Source: a virus | Virus record (IMG/VR): IMGVR_UViG_3300021962_000143 | Coordinates: 1 to 54,082 of that record | DNA length: 54,082 bases | Strand: one strand, 5' to 3' | Part shown: positions 2,824 through 46,614 of the stretch, piece by piece | Layout of the letters: every line of letters starts with the position of its first letter | Position numbering within the stretch: the stretch's first letter is position 1 | Translations under genes and position numbers: made by a program | The notes under the pieces: model-generated | What the model saw: the letters and a program-made list of their open reading frames with translations, nothing else | Told to the model about the DNA's origin: nothing | Databases searched by the model: none

Positions 2824-3462
2824 ATGGCTATAGTTAACAATCGCTCAAACCTGAAGACAGACCCATTACGTAACTTTAGGTTCTTGGTTACGTTCAAGTC
2901 TCTTTCAGGAACAGACATAACCTCTAGTACAGCAACAGCAAACCTTGCTTCTGCAACTATGGGCTTTACATCAGTGTCAGGAATGGCTGTTACAACAGAC
3001 TCTATTCCTTACCGTGAAGGTGGTTACAACACTACTGTTCACCAGATTCCAGGGCAAACAACATTTGCTCCTATTACACTACAACGTGGCGTAATGCTAG
3101 GCTCTAGCGAAAACTGGGCTTGGATGCGTAACTTGTTTGCTACTGTTCAAGGTGGAGGAACAAACCGCAGTGTTGCTGAAAACTTCCGTATGGATTTAGA
3201 ACTTAAGGTTCTTTCTCACCCAATTCCTGGCGTTGGAGGAGAATCTACAGGAGTTTCAACAACCACCAAAGACCACGTAGCTATGCGTTTTAACGTGTAC
3301 AACTGCTGGCCTACTTCGGTCGCATACTCTGACCTCAACGCAGGCGACAATGCTCTATTCGTAGAGCAAATGACGCTTGTTCACGAAGGGTTTGATGTCA
3401 ACTGGGCAGCAGACCTTTCAACAGATGCATCTGCAGTTTATGGCGTAGCAGCAACAAAGTAA
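2824..3462 (+). CDS. Tail tube protein
   Basis: This 212-residue protein has the gp19-like tail tube start (NLKTDPLRNFRFLVTF). A later segment, GFTSVSGMAVTTDSIPYREGG followed shortly by a conserved-looking ITLQRGV, is typical of tube proteins. It stacks as rings to form the inner tube through which DNA passes, inside the sheath made by the gene before it. A strong ribosome-binding site (AAAGGAGA) lies about ten bases upstream. The tail assembly chaperone and tape measure genes follow, as in other contractile phages. Confidence 0.92.
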   Translation: MAIVNNRSNLKTDPLRNFRFLVTFKSLSGTDITSSTATANLASATMGFTSVSGMAVTTDSIPYREGGYNTTVHQIPGQTTFAPITLQRGVMLGSSENWAWMRNLFATVQGGGTNRSVAENFRMDLELKVLSHPIPGVGGESTGVSTTTKDHVAMRFNVYNCWPTSVAYSDLNAGDNALFVEQMTLVHEGFDVNWAADLSTDASAVYGVAATK

Positions 3463-3479: not shown

Positions 3480-4292
3480 ATGACGAATACAATTAATGCA
3501 GCGGCTAATCCCGCAATGGCTAACAACATTCTAAATCAAGTCATGAACGAACGACCTGAAAACGATTTCAATCCTGAAATCAAATCTCCTTTGGAAAATA
3601 CGGTAGACCTTCCTGGCGGGTACATCACACCCGCTGGGGAGGTGCTCCGTTTAGCAGAGGTAAGAGAACTAAACGGAAGAGACGAAGAAGCAATCTCCAA
3701 AGCATCTAGTATTGGAAAAGCTCTTCTAACCATCCTTCAACGTGGAACAGTAAAGGTAGGAGAAATTCCAGCTAGCGAAGATGTCTTTAACGGACTTTTA
3801 GCAGGAGACTTGGATGCTCTTCTTCTAGGAATTATCAAAGCAACGTTTGGTAATGAAATTGATATTCCATCTTACTGCTTAAAGTGCGAAGACTACAAAA
3901 CTGTAACAGTAGACTTAACTGAAGATATTAAGTTTAAAGTTTTAGCAGACCCTATTAATGACCGTGTGTTTACAGTTAAAGGAAGAAAGAATGAATACAC
4001 AGTTCGGCTTCCCTCTGGTATAACACAGAAAGCTTTAATCAACAGCGTTGATAAGACTGAAGCAGAACAGACAACTGTACTTCTTGAAAACACCGTCATT
4101 AAGATTAACAACGACCCAGTCTACAGCGTTGTTCAAGTTCAAAACTTAGGCCTAGTAGACAGAAAAAAGATTGTAGAACAGATTAGCGCAAGAGTACCTG
4201 GACCTCAGTTTACTGACATTACAGTTACTTGCCCTGATTGCGAAGGCGAGGTAACGGTCTCCATTAATTTGGGAACCTTGTTTCGCTTGTAG
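3480..4292 (+). CDS. Tail assembly chaperone (zero-frame product)
   Basis: This 270-residue protein sits between tail tube and tape measure, the position of the tail assembly chaperone. Residues 45-130 are helical and resemble the T4 gp26/phage chaperone group. Two CxxC pairs (C133/C136 and C251/C254) suggest a bound zinc. The stop at 4290-4292 is followed in the +1 frame by a gene-like reading frame of 55 codons that has no start of its own, so a longer frameshifted form is likely (see next entry). The ATG is preceded by AAAGGA. The family assignment rests on position, the Cys pairs and the overlapping frame. Confidence 0.75.
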   Translation: MTNTINAAANPAMANNILNQVMNERPENDFNPEIKSPLENTVDLPGGYITPAGEVLRLAEVRELNGRDEEAISKASSIGKALLTILQRGTVKVGEIPASEDVFNGLLAGDLDALLLGIIKATFGNEIDIPSYCLKCEDYKTVTVDLTEDIKFKVLADPINDRVFTVKGRKNEYTVRLPSGITQKALINSVDKTEAEQTTVLLENTVIKINNDPVYSVVQVQNLGLVDRKKIVEQISARVPGPQFTDITVTCPDCEGEVTVSINLGTLFRL

Positions 4293-4452
4293 TTACACCA
4301 CTTACCTGGAACTTTTTTCAGAGTGGGCAGCTATATCTGATATGCATAAAGGATGGACACTATCTGACATAAAGGACATGTCAGTAAGAGAAAGACGCAA
4401 TTGGCTAGAACTAGCCAAAGCAAAGTTAGAAAGGATGAGTAATGGCGTTTAA
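4285..4452 (+). CDS. +1 frameshift extension of tail assembly chaperone
   Basis: The +1 frame is open from 4255 to the TAA at 4450-4452 and reads as protein-like sequence (YLELFSEWAAISDMHKGW, then SDIKDMSVRERRNWLELAK). It has no start codon near its beginning and no ribosome-binding site. The zero frame reads ...TTG TTT CGC TTG TAG. A Phe-tRNA on TTT (4281-4283) could slip one base to TTC (4282-4284) with full pairing, giving a 323-residue fusion. Many tail chaperone genes make such G/GT fusions, usually by -1 slips, with +1 and -2 cases known. The extension overlaps the tape measure start by 11 bases. The frameshift is inference. Confidence 0.65.
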   Translation, partial: ACSYTTYLELFSEWAAISDMHKGWTLSDIKDMSVRERRNWLELAKAKLERMSNGV

Positions 4453-7228
4453 CTTTATGGGAAACGTAAAAAGCCTTACCTCTAATGTTGCGTCCCTTAA
4501 AAAGGAACTCTCTGGTGTCTATGACATTTTAAAACAAATAAAGGGCATTGGACCAACCGCATTTGGTGATGTAAACGCAACAATTGCTAATGGCGGTCAA
4601 TTTGGGAATGGTGCTGGAACACCGCTATTTAGTAAAACACAAATTGCTAATCCAAAAGCTAATTTTGGAAATCAGCAAAACCGTGTTTCAGCATCTCTTC
4701 CTCAGTCTGCAGCTCAACAGACCAACTACTCCCGTACTTCATCAGCGATTGAGACGCAATACCTATCAATGGGAATGCGTTCAGCAAAGTTTGGGATTGC
4801 GCAAGGAGTTGCAGCAACGGCTGTAAACGCTATAGGCGGAGTAGCAAGTCTTCTACCTAACCTTGGAACAGTTTCTCAAAGAGCTGGAAGTTTCTATGGT
4901 TCTTCAGCTATGTTTGGCGGCACTAACCGAACACAGAACCAACTGAATACGATGGCTGCAATGAAGGGCGGCATCACAGGCCCTATGGGTACTGCTGAAG
5001 CTTTTGGAACTCTTGTTAATTACAGTTTTATGCCTGGCAGTGCAAATATGCAAATGGGTCTTGGGCAAGTTAGTGCTGCTGCAAAAGCTTTAAACATGGA
5101 TAACGCAACTGCAGCAAATGCTGTTGGAGCATTGTCTACTGGAAGTATGGGAGCTCAGCTCTTCCAGTACGGTATTCGTCAGTACGACGAAAACATGAAC
5201 TTGCGTACTCCTGGACAGATTTCAAAAGACATTTTGCAACGTGTGTTTTATCCAGGGCAAGATGTAACTAAAATTGGTGCCAAGCAATTTGCTAGCGACG
5301 CCATGGGAAAGAACCTTGACTATCAGCTATCCACAATGGGCATAACAGGTGAAACAGCAACCTTAGTTAAAGCTTCAATGGGAAGAGTTGTTACAGGTCA
5401 GAATCCTGACCTGACATCAGTAGACACCTCTAAGAACCCTATTAACTACGCATTAAAGATTGCTAGTTCTGAGGAAAGCTTAGCTCAAGCTTCTGAAAAA
5501 GGATTAATTGCTGGAGCAAACACTGCCGCTAGTGCAATTGAGAGTCTTAACAAAGCGCTGGAAGGTACACCTGAACTTATCCTTCAAATGAAGGGTGCGA
5601 TGCAAGGATTCAATGGCGGTAAGCCAGGTGTTGGCTCAGCTATTGGCGGAGTTGTAAGTAGCCTAGGTAACATTGCTCAAGGTGTTTTAACCTATAAAGC
5701 TTTATCTGCACTGGGTGGAGGTAAGGGACTTGCTGGAGCTACAAAACTTGGTGGTAAAGCTTTATCAACCGTAGCAAAAGGCGGTGTAGTTGGAACCGCT
5801 GCTGCGCTAGGTGGAGAAGCAATAAAGAGCGGAGCAGAAAAAGGAAGCTTTAGAAGCCGTGCAGGAAACGCTGCTAAGTGGGGTGGAGCTGCTTTTACTG
5901 CAACGGCTCTTTTTAACGCAATCCCTGTTGGCGGACAGATTGCATCTGGTACAACAACCGCAATTGCTGCAGGTTTAGGATTCTTACTTGGTGGACCAAA
6001 CGATGGATTTACATACTCTGTAGGAGGTCTATCACAAGGCGTTGTAAACCCATCGTCAATGAGCGGTGCAAGCTCTCAACCAATGACCATGCCAAACCCA
6101 GCACTTGCTATGTCAGCTACCTCAACTTCCGCCTTAACTGGAGCTGGTTATGGAGCAAAAGACACTGCAATGACAACCATGACTGGAGCAGTTAACTACC
6201 ACACAGGGCAAGACACCCCTATGGACCCTGGCACTCCAATACATGCTCGTTTTGCTGGAAAAGTTGTAGACAAGAATTTAAGTCGTGATTTAGGTATCGC
6301 AGTTGAAATTGACCATGGAGACGGTTACTCCTCTATCTACGGTCACTTAAACGAAAAGTCTGTTCGTACTGGTCAGACCGTAAAGGTAGGAGACCTTATT
6401 GGAAAGTCTGGCGCTACTGGACGAGTTCGTGGGCCTCACCTTCACTTTGAACTTCGTAAAGGTAAGGTACCAGTTGACCCTAAGACCTATAATCCTTATA
6501 GCAGTAAAAACAAAGATAAGTCTTCTAGCTCTTCTAACTCTTCGGATTCAATTACTCCAGCAAATGTAAACGCAGGAGTAAAGGCAAACGCTAAAGAGCT
6601 TCATGCTTGGTTAGTATCCCAAGGACTTAGTTCTAACGGTGCCACTGGAGTTATCGCTAACTTAATCGCTGAATCTGGACTTAAGACATACAATCCAGGA
6701 GATGGTGGAACCTCTAATGGGATTGCACAATGGCACGACACTTCACCAGGTAAAGGTAGACTTACAAACTTAAAGAAATTTGCAAAGTCTAAAAACTTAG
6801 ACCCTTTTAGCCTTGAAGCTCAAAAAATGTTTTTGCTTAAAGAAATGAAAACCTATGGGTCAATGATGAAGCAGCTTCAAGACCCTAAAATAAAGGTGTT
6901 AGATGCTACTGCTTTATTTATGCGCAAGTTTGAAAGGCCAAAAGACCAAAGCGATGCAGCAGCACAGCGTAGAGCTAGCTTAGGCCTTGGAGCTATAGAG
7001 GGAGGACCTACGGATGGATTCAACACAAACGTAAGTGTTGCAAATCCTAGTTCTCCAGTTTCCGCTCAATTGCCACAACAATCTGTTGCAGCTAACGGCG
7101 GAACAAACAATGTATATGTAACGTTGCAAATTCAACAAGCAAACCAACAAGAAGCAGAAGCTTTTGCTAAAACAATAAAGAAGTATCTTGAACAAGGTAA
7201 CGATGTCTATCAGATGGGGAGAAAGTAA
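4442..7228 (+). CDS. Tape measure protein with M23 peptidase and tail lysozyme domains
   Basis: This 928-residue protein sets tail length and carries two cell-wall enzymes. Residues 1-500 are Gly/Ala-rich and helical with hydrophobic stretches near 115-135 and 495-510. Residues about 580-690 are an M23 (LytM) metallopeptidase, with H587 and D591 (HTGQD), H635 (YGHL) and the HLH motif at 666-668 as zinc and catalytic residues. A Ser-rich linker follows. Residues about 715-855 match the phage tail lysozyme fold, with likely catalytic Glu at 744 (AESGL) and NGIAQWHD after it. The combination suggests both peptide and glycan cutting during DNA entry. Confidence 0.9.
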   Translation: MAFNFMGNVKSLTSNVASLKKELSGVYDILKQIKGIGPTAFGDVNATIANGGQFGNGAGTPLFSKTQIANPKANFGNQQNRVSASLPQSAAQQTNYSRTSSAIETQYLSMGMRSAKFGIAQGVAATAVNAIGGVASLLPNLGTVSQRAGSFYGSSAMFGGTNRTQNQLNTMAAMKGGITGPMGTAEAFGTLVNYSFMPGSANMQMGLGQVSAAAKALNMDNATAANAVGALSTGSMGAQLFQYGIRQYDENMNLRTPGQISKDILQRVFYPGQDVTKIGAKQFASDAMGKNLDYQLSTMGITGETATLVKASMGRVVTGQNPDLTSVDTSKNPINYALKIASSEESLAQASEKGLIAGANTAASAIESLNKALEGTPELILQMKGAMQGFNGGKPGVGSAIGGVVSSLGNIAQGVLTYKALSALGGGKGLAGATKLGGKALSTVAKGGVVGTAAALGGEAIKSGAEKGSFRSRAGNAAKWGGAAFTATALFNAIPVGGQIASGTTTAIAAGLGFLLGGPNDGFTYSVGGLSQGVVNPSSMSGASSQPMTMPNPALAMSATSTSALTGAGYGAKDTAMTTMTGAVNYHTGQDTPMDPGTPIHARFAGKVVDKNLSRDLGIAVEIDHGDGYSSIYGHLNEKSVRTGQTVKVGDLIGKSGATGRVRGPHLHFELRKGKVPVDPKTYNPYSSKNKDKSSSSSNSSDSITPANVNAGVKANAKELHAWLVSQGLSSNGATGVIANLIAESGLKTYNPGDGGTSNGIAQWHDTSPGKGRLTNLKKFAKSKNLDPFSLEAQKMFLLKEMKTYGSMMKQLQDPKIKVLDATALFMRKFERPKDQSDAAAQRRASLGLGAIEGGPTDGFNTNVSVANPSSPVSAQLPQQSVAANGGTNNVYVTLQIQQANQQEAEAFAKTIKKYLEQGNDVYQMGRK

Positions 7229-45258: not shown

Positions 45259-46614
45259 TCACTCCAAATAGTCATTCACAACCTCGGCTGCGTTTGACTG
45301 CTGGTGGCGGATACGATGCAGGTATCTCTCCGTAGTTACGATTGACTGGTGACCTAACCGCTCTTTGACCTCATGCACATCTACCCCGTTCTTTAACAAC
45401 TGGGTAGCGTTAGCGTGCCGTAGGTCGTGAGTAGTGGGATACCAACCAATCCCTGACTTGTTGATGGCTTCGTTCCAAATGGCTCGCCACTTGTCACGAG
45501 GTAGGTGTCTTTCGCTAAGGCTTTTGCTATGGCTTTTGCTAGGGCTTTCGCTTTTGCTAAGGCTTTTGCTAGTGCTTTTGCTAAGGCTTTCTACCTTGCC
45601 CTTTCCCTTGTCCTTTCTATAGTGATTGCGGTACTCCCTAACCGCTTCTTTACACGCCTCACACCTACAACCGCCGACATTGTATGAATACGCCGTTGCG
45701 TGTTGGAATCTCCTGCTTCCAATGGTGTAAGGCTTCCCAACCACGCTTGTGGTAGGGCTTTCTATTTTACCCTTCTTCTCAACCAGGTGCTTTGAGAAGA
45801 TAAGGTCTTCTTTTGCTAGGGCTTTTGCCTTTACAAACTTCTTTATCTCTGCTATTAGAGCTGAGCTCAGCACAACAGTTCTTTTATTTCCGTTCTTTGT
45901 AGCTGGCACAACGAGAAATCTTGTCCCCTCGGACTTTGTCCCTGCGGGCTGGTATGCGTAGCCAACATCTGAGACTGTGCGCCTGACATAGACCTCTTTA
46001 GATTGGAAGTTAAAGTCTTTGACTCTGAGTTCTGTGGCTTCTCCGTATCGGCAACCAGAGGCTATGAGAAACTGTGCTAAAAGACGGCTTCCGTCTGTGG
46101 GTAAGTTCTTTAAGATAGCCTGAAAGTCTTTAGGCTCTAGGGTGTAGGTAGGGTCAGGCTTGGGCGTGCTTAGTCTTATGCGGTGGGTGGGGTTTGTGGC
46201 TATCGCTTCGTCATCTACGGCGAGCCTGAACAGAGAACCTAAAGAAGTCTTTAGGTGTGAGATTGTGCTTGGGCTAATCCCTTGATTTGCGAGATTATCA
46301 AACAGGGTCTTTATGTCTTTCTTGGTGATTGCGGAGATGCGCTTAGACCCAAAAGAAGGTTGGGCATACTTCTTTAGCAGGGTAATGTAGTTCTTGCGGG
46401 TTATGACTCGTATGTCATTCGCCGCCGTAAGTTTGGCTAAGTAATCGTTGAATGTCTTTTGGTTTTCGGGCATTAGATTAAACTCGCCTTCTTCGGCAAG
46501 TAATCCAGCGTTAAGTGCTTTAGCCCTAGATGAGAAAGTGCCTACGGATTTGACTTTTCCGTCTTGGCGGTAATAGGCGGTAAATCGCCCTTTGCGTTTA
46601 ACTGCGTAAGCCAT
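45259..46614 (-). CDS. int: Tyrosine integrase with a zinc module and Ser-Lys repeat insertion
   Basis: The 451-residue protein has an arm-binding N-terminus (MAYAVKRKGRFTAYYRQDGK), core-binding helices at about 55-135 and a catalytic domain with R189 (SGCRYGE), H396 and R399 (THDLRHANA), H422 (LGHQS) and Y431 (TERYLHR). Between about 300 and 370 is an insertion: a GCRCEACKEAVREYRNHYRK zinc motif (315-334) and then Ser-Lys repeats (344-366). The catalytic set is complete. It would integrate the phage at a host site, so the phage is probably temperate. No attP is visible. Confidence 0.93.
   Translation of the reverse strand: MAYAVKRKGRFTAYYRQDGKVKSVGTFSSRAKALNAGLLAEEGEFNLMPENQKTFNDYLAKLTAANDIRVITRKNYITLLKKYAQPSFGSKRISAITKKDIKTLFDNLANQGISPSTISHLKTSLGSLFRLAVDDEAIATNPTHRIRLSTPKPDPTYTLEPKDFQAILKNLPTDGSRLLAQFLIASGCRYGEATELRVKDFNFQSKEVYVRRTVSDVGYAYQPAGTKSEGTRFLVVPATKNGNKRTVVLSSALIAEIKKFVKAKALAKEDLIFSKHLVEKKGKIESPTTSVVGKPYTIGSRRFQHATAYSYNVGGCRCEACKEAVREYRNHYRKDKGKGKVESLSKSTSKSLSKSESPSKSHSKSLSERHLPRDKWRAIWNEAINKSGIGWYPTTHDLRHANATQLLKNGVDVHEVKERLGHQSIVTTERYLHRIRHQQSNAAEVVNDYLE
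45505..45595 (-). repeat. Low-complexity 12-base repeat coding Ser-Lys in the integrase
   Basis: About six imperfect copies of a GCTTTTGCTA(T/A)G-like unit, each 12 bases, lie in tandem. On the coding strand they give the SKSHSKSLSE tract. The same unit recurs at 44692-44714 and 45811-45830. Confidence 0.75.

Follow-up and report, generated by a model that had tools for sequence, protein, structure and literature searches.

A putative hairpin-assisted +1 ribosomal frameshift in the T4-type tail assembly chaperones of contractile-tailed phages, mostly of actinobacteria

Results

The tail assembly chaperone locus

The window analysed here is the whole 54,082-nucleotide stretch of IMG/VR virus record IMGVR_UViG_3300021962_000143 (positions 1 to 54,082). 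Genes for the tail sheath (1242-2804) and tail tube (2824-3462) are followed by a 270-aa ORF and by the tape measure gene (Table 1). The product of the 270-aa ORF is a T4-type tail assembly chaperone/baseplate-hub protein, in line with the original prediction of a tail assembly chaperone: it matches PF12322 (T4_baseplate), the family of T4 gp26 and gp51, with an E-value of 3.8e-10 and 40.2 bits against a Pfam cut-off of 24.5, as well as phrog_150 (baseplate hub, E 4e-9), and its gene lies between the major tail protein gene and, directly downstream, the tape measure gene, the position characteristic of the lambda G/GT type. The start of the next long ORF overlaps the end of the +1 ORF, or lies within 50 nt of it, in 82 of 86 homologue clusters (see below). 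Elsewhere in the window, a tyrosine-recombinase-like integrase is encoded on the minus strand at 45259-46614; it carries an unusual insert, repetitive and rich in Ser and Lys (SLSKSTSKSLSKSESPSKSHSKSLSE), and suggests a temperate phage. Neither the Rfam scan nor the tRNA scan gave a hit in the window.

The 3' end of the zero frame reads ACC TTG TTT CGC TTG TAG, with the stop codon TAG at 4290-4292, and the +1 frame, preceded by a stop at about 4254, stays open through to 4449. When TTTC is read as a single Phe, the translation runs to exactly 323 residues with F268 as the sole altered step. Both the codons ending the zero frame and the 323-residue fusion had been given in the original prediction and were recovered as such.

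Table 1. Features of the chaperone locus in the window.
Feature	Coordinates	Strand	Basis
Zero-frame tail assembly chaperone, short form, 270 aa, T4 gp26-like, PF12322, two CxxC pairs	3480..4292	+	ORF, profile matches, gene position
GAGGT element, Shine-Dalgarno-like, 29-33 nt upstream of the slip codon	4248..4252	+	Codon bias
5' stem-loop, up to 8 bp, arms 4256-4263 and 4270-4277, 6-nt loop	4256..4277	+	Folding stability, covariation, RNAalifold
Putative slip site TTT_C, P-site TTT re-pairing as TTC, A-site codon CGC	4281..4284	+	TTTC invariance among homologues
+1-frame extension, 56 aa including the shared Phe	4282..4449 (stop codon 4450-4452)	+	Conservation, dN/dS, weak profile matches
Predicted long form by +1 shift, 323 aa	3480..4449	+	Read-through with TTTC as Phe; colinear with single-frame injection-system proteins
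Tape measure gene, ORF of 928 aa, start overlapping the end of the +1 ORF	4442..7228	+	ORF

Conservation of the slip site

From IMG/VR, the survey took in 80 close relatives and, out of 571 matching loci, 80 that are more distant; it also covered the Streptomyces phages BRock, GiJojo, LuckySocke, Alone3 and pSt2308, and six bacterial-genome loci including Saccharothrix, Actinomadura, Streptomyces and Nonomuraea. The clade sampled consists of freshwater phages, Streptomyces phages and actinobacterial prophages, contractile-tailed and mostly of actinobacteria, and was grouped into 86, 58 and 41 clusters at 90%, 70% and 60% identity, respectively. TTTC was found in frame within the last eight codons, with the +1 frame running into the same domain, in 168 of 169 testable loci, and was present in 86/86 clusters at 90% identity and 41/41 at 60% identity; the clusters share kinship, and significance figures based on them overstate their independence. 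Among control ORFs of the same loci, 1/265 had an in-frame TTTC in the last eight codons and none of the 265 had TTTC plus a long open +1 frame.

The A-site codon was CGN in 61 of the 86 clusters, CAR in 15 and CTN in 10, and the E-site codon encoded Leu in 80, so that in-frame UUU_C is combined here with restricted A- and E-site codons, as in the class of +1 sites predicted by Firth et al. 2012 (PMC3498833). The conserved slip site lies near the 3' end and is overlapped by the extension frame, which continues for 44-76 codons beyond the stop. The stop followed TTT after 1, 2, 3, 5 or 6 sense codons and is therefore not the fixed element. Regarding the context that the original prediction had proposed to look for in relatives, TTTC proved invariant, whereas TTGTAG did not hold up and the A-site codon was not always CGC. 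A prfB-like arrangement, with the stop codon as the A-site stall, was rejected on the same variation in distance, and transcriptional slippage was rejected with only three T's at the window site.

Other C-followed Phe codons within these chaperone genes were TTC rather than TTT in a ratio of 20:9. In the first set of homologues, TTT occupied the slip site in 34/34 clusters, three of them from Streptomyces phages that prefer TTC elsewhere (20:11). The TTT bias alone is not decisive: in AT-rich members it gives weak support, as TTT also predominates (91-97%) at their other conserved Phe positions; the Streptomyces phages, with their preference for TTC elsewhere, are the more telling case. In the records of these five phages (L083-L087), the chaperone join is unannotated, and the second frame is entered as a separate hypothetical gene with differing start codons or, in pSt2308, is missing altogether.

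An upstream hairpin and a GAGGT element

In the alignment, complementary changes on both sides of a stem were evident just before the slip site, and the stem was predicted by RNAalifold; it had been missed by the original prediction. In the window, the stem-loop runs right up to the E-site codon TTG (4278-4280), and this copy has one or two mismatches (z -2.7 for the window alone). For the 27 nt preceding TTT, the mean folding energy over the 58 clusters sharing less than 70% identity was -7.6 kcal/mol, as against -3.8 kcal/mol for shuffled controls in which the amino acids were kept and synonymous codons permuted, giving a mean z of -1.7 to -1.8 (standard error 0.17-0.19). Segments elsewhere in the gene had z values of about 0 to -0.5, the signal peaking at -30 to 0 and being gone one to two codons further upstream.

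This was accompanied by covariation. Aligned without gaps, 40 loci (38 of them distinct) showed 87% pairing over the eight-pair stem, with a covariation score of 0.354 compared with 0.169 ± 0.018 for shuffled alignments (0/500) and at most 0.117 for slid ones. Specifically, the central pair (-19/-10), which joins the wobble base of a Pro/Ser codon to the wobble base of a Leu-type codon, was UA in 15, CG in 8, GC in 8 and AU in 4 of the 38 sequences. Folding and covariation both indicate that the hairpin is under selection. The 3' arm most often ended four bases before TTT, i.e. directly before the E-site codon, so that the stem occupies the place described for upstream stimulators of +1 shifting. 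The stem register was shifted by one base in distant lineages, and some distant members (L111, L112, L130, L152 and L161) folded poorly at this position. The region downstream was slightly more structured than expected (z about -0.5 to -0.8), an excess too weak for a downstream stimulatory structure, which was rejected.

A further element, GAGGT, precedes the hairpin. Its Glu codon was GAG rather than GAA in 38:3 among the 58 clusters, while Glu-Val pairs in the flanking genes used GAA 103 times and GAG 37 times. Pairing of GAGGT with the slip site, as proposed by RNAalifold, fails to explain the choice of GAG because GAA would pair better. A second Shine-Dalgarno-like GAGGT is found in the chaperone gene at 3636-3643, with its Glu codon as GAG in 21:1 among the 58 clusters.

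The +1-frame extension

The +1 frame, which had been described as protein-like, encodes a conserved domain in the homologues, whose core across the 56 members aligned reads W-[ST]-L-x-x-I-x-x-L-[ST]-x-RER-x-x-W, and is under purifying selection (median dN/dS 0.146). Profile matches to known families were weak but recurrent. The window extension scored 15 bits against a threshold of 27 for DUF6760 (PF20546) and 15 bits against 23 for Phage P2 GpE (PF06528), with weak matches to these families in 18/56 (best E 8e-4) and 13/56 members (best E 1.7e-3), respectively; 17/56 members weakly matched PHROG 6416 (tail protein) and 2/56 phrog_634 (baseplate hub assembly catalyst). The related domain of an injection-system locus (L173) passed DUF6760 with 27.6 bits. 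Searches against solved structures with both parts of the chaperone returned nothing convincing.

Single-frame fusions and frame breaks in the wider family

Relatives in which the PF12322 protein and the extension domain are encoded in one frame were found only as distant bacterial injection systems, outside this phage clade. In injection-system-like loci of the Streptomyces order (Streptomycetales), the single-frame proteins aligned with the phage-fusion profile over residues 98-312, across the junction (hhalign probability 99.1, E 8e-19); the predicted fusion therefore exists elsewhere without a frameshift. The chaperone and C-terminal domain are uninterrupted in the injection-system-like loci L186-L214 (not L208) and L216, and only the long form would therefore be made there.

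More distant PF12322 genes showed other arrangements. SP-15 (L176) and its relative L179 have TTT TTT C with the domain in +1, Thornevirus LIS04 (L175) has TTT TTT A with the domain in +1, and Atu_ph07 (L177) has T_TTT_TTC with the domain in -1, all unannotated; in BpSp, the break looks to be -1. In an Acidobacteriales injection-system locus (L173/L180, about 3660-3850 in L173 coordinates), nine T's end the PF12322 gene and the DUF6760 domain follows in the -1 frame, where an ATGA overlap could start the domain separately. Because distant genes break frame at the same place as either +1 or -1, the direction of the shift appears to have changed within the PF12322 family.

Discussion

A probable +1 shift and a possible role for the hairpin

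The T4-type chaperone gene described here very probably undergoes a programmed +1 ribosomal frameshift, which the hairpin would assist and which would yield a short and a long form. Invariant TTTC, a selected +1 domain, no conserved start, the gene position and the single-frame fusion all agree with slippage of tRNA-Phe from TTT to TTC, as originally predicted, and the +1 reading is supported more strongly than had been stated. Sequence comparison reveals the conserved slip site, the selection on the +1 frame and on the hairpin, and the natural single-frame fusion, and from these we infer that the shift occurs, along with its efficiency, the pulling mechanism and the role in assembly.

Most ribosomes would stop at TAG (4290) and release the 270-aa short form, while a minority would slip by +1 with peptidyl-tRNA-Phe on TTT, the anticodon 3'-AAG-5' moving from UUU to the better-pairing UUC, and then translate the 55-aa C-terminal domain. 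The hairpin, 5' of the E-site codon, would be unwound in decoding and may refold behind the ribosome, pulling the mRNA towards the exit and favouring the slip. By analogy with lambda gpG/gpGT, the two forms may coat the tape measure protein in a fixed ratio and recruit tube subunits, the short form likely binding the tape measure protein and the long form recruiting the tube subunits.

With less confidence than for the shift itself, we consider it reasonably probable that this natural, maintained 5' hairpin drives the +1 shift at UUU_C by forming in the wake of the ribosome and pulling the mRNA forward, possibly together with the GAGGT element being brought near the anti-Shine-Dalgarno sequence. 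It is possible, but rather unlikely, that the +1 shift is real and the hairpin serves instead in mRNA stability, ribosome slowing or initiation on the tape measure gene. The function of the hairpin is deduced rather than observed and the downstream region is also slightly structured, which leaves room for such a role; against it, the position of the hairpin is locked to the slip site, even where the stem register differs by lineage, and its spacing equals that at which engineered hairpins act.

Far less probable is translation of the second frame as a separate gene from its own start, either ATG 4342 or by reinitiation after TAG. The +1 frame had originally been said to have no start codon. 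This is not strictly so, as ATG codons do occur, beginning with one at 4342, 20 codons into the extension; yet this ATG is not conserved among homologues, and no ATG, GTG or TTG precedes the conserved Trp in 38/86 clusters and no ATG in 63/86. The records of BRock, GiJojo, LuckySocke and Alone3 do annotate separate downstream ORFs, but with starts that vary among these phages, and the ATGA overlap of the Acidobacteriales locus could start the homologous domain. A separate gene would, however, leave the invariant TTTC and the hairpin unexplained, the +1 frame is conserved right up to TTTC, where no start is needed, and colinear single-frame fusions exist.

A -2 shift is, if anything, still more improbable. 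It would reach the same frame with one extra residue, and phage Mu gpGT uses -2 (cited in PMC3498833), but with the E-site codons seen (TTG, CTG, TTA, CTA, TTC and ACC) tRNA-Phe would move onto TGT, TAT, TCT or CCT at nearly all sites, with a mismatch at the middle base. It is rejected because of this mismatched re-pairing, and the base after TTT is invariantly C, which is relevant only to +1. Sequencing or assembly errors or decayed genes can be dismissed, as the same break at the same base recurs across 168 loci that come from many different samples, isolates and methods, the extension is under purifying selection, and nothing in the comparative data favoured such a reading.

Relation to known frameshifting systems

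Chaperone frameshifting is already known, as is +1 shifting in phage structural genes. In the lambda gpG/gpGT tail chaperone (Levin 1993; Xu 2004; described in PMC5009743), the shift is -1 at a heptamer, whereas it would be +1 at TTTC here and in the T4-type PF12322 family. T4-like chaperones were identified by Vladimirov, Gautam and Davidson 2022 (Virology 566:9), who, as cited in PMC10885494 and PMC12846349, argued for a non-frameshift route to both forms; some T4-like phages have separate short and long chaperone genes (PMC10885494). The family PF12322 and the existence of short and long forms are thus shared, but one gene would give both by a +1 shift in the phages studied here. The Pakpunavirus/Vandenendeviridae chaperone likewise has a conserved T-rich shift site at the end of a myovirus chaperone gene, but with a -1 shift at GTTTTT and in another host group, and the available text of PMC12846349 mentions no upstream hairpin.

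In influenza PA-X, P-site slippage on UUU_C is established, a single tRNA-Phe reading both codons and UUC better (PMC3498833), and plant amalgaviruses use UUU_CGN (PMC5052127). The phage sites share with these the putative P-site Phe slip from UUU to UUC and a C-starting A-site codon, mostly CGN. They differ in that PA-X and the amalgaviruses belong to eukaryotic RNA viruses, with no 5' hairpin mentioned in the available portions of these sources, and in that the phage sites also have CAR and CTN A-site codons.

In yeast, +1 shifting is stimulated by hairpins placed immediately ahead of the shift site (PMC3639245); upstream hairpins have the same effect in vitro with 70S ribosomes, to an extent that depends on how stable the stem is (PMC6321510). 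The phage element, reading hairpin, one E-site codon, UUU and C, has the same anatomy as these engineered constructs, in which refolding favours +1, but the phage hairpin is natural, coding and evolutionarily maintained.

Other +1 cases described in phages and archaeal viruses also differ. The chaperone of the haloarchaeal myovirus HSTV-2 has a joined CDS in NC_020159 and is called very likely +1 in PMC5009743. Its frame overlap (L217, 6983-7814) contains TCC TTT CGC, identical to the influenza PA-X core; the chaperone is unrelated, from a virus of an archaeal host and without a PF12322 match. In the Listeria phages PSA, A118 and A500, natural +1 shifts occur in structural genes (PMC5009743), but at Pro CCC sites adjacent to a stop codon or pseudoknot, and in capsid and major tail genes rather than the chaperone. 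The literature searched, which covered few subscription journals, contained no report of T4-type chaperones in actinobacterial phages that combine a conserved +1 site of the UUU_C kind and a 5' hairpin that covaries. What appears to be new is the combination, in a chaperone frameshift, of the +1 direction, the UUU_C site and the 5' hairpin.

Significance

For cultured Streptomyces phages, the analysis puts right an annotation that overlooks the long form of the chaperone. T4-type chaperones, some of which have been reported with separate short and long genes, would elsewhere use frameshifting, and phages would employ, apparently by convergence, a UUU_CGN site resembling the one in influenza PA-X. 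The sites form a large and deeply diverged natural family of putative bacterial +1 sites, in which a single slip tetramer is invariant and the 5' hairpin covaries, and the forward-pulling role of upstream hairpins therefore becomes testable by compensatory mutation. If the proposed mechanism is true, the 5' hairpin would mirror the structures that drive -1 shifts from the downstream side, and nature would be using a mechanism known to date only from designed constructs.
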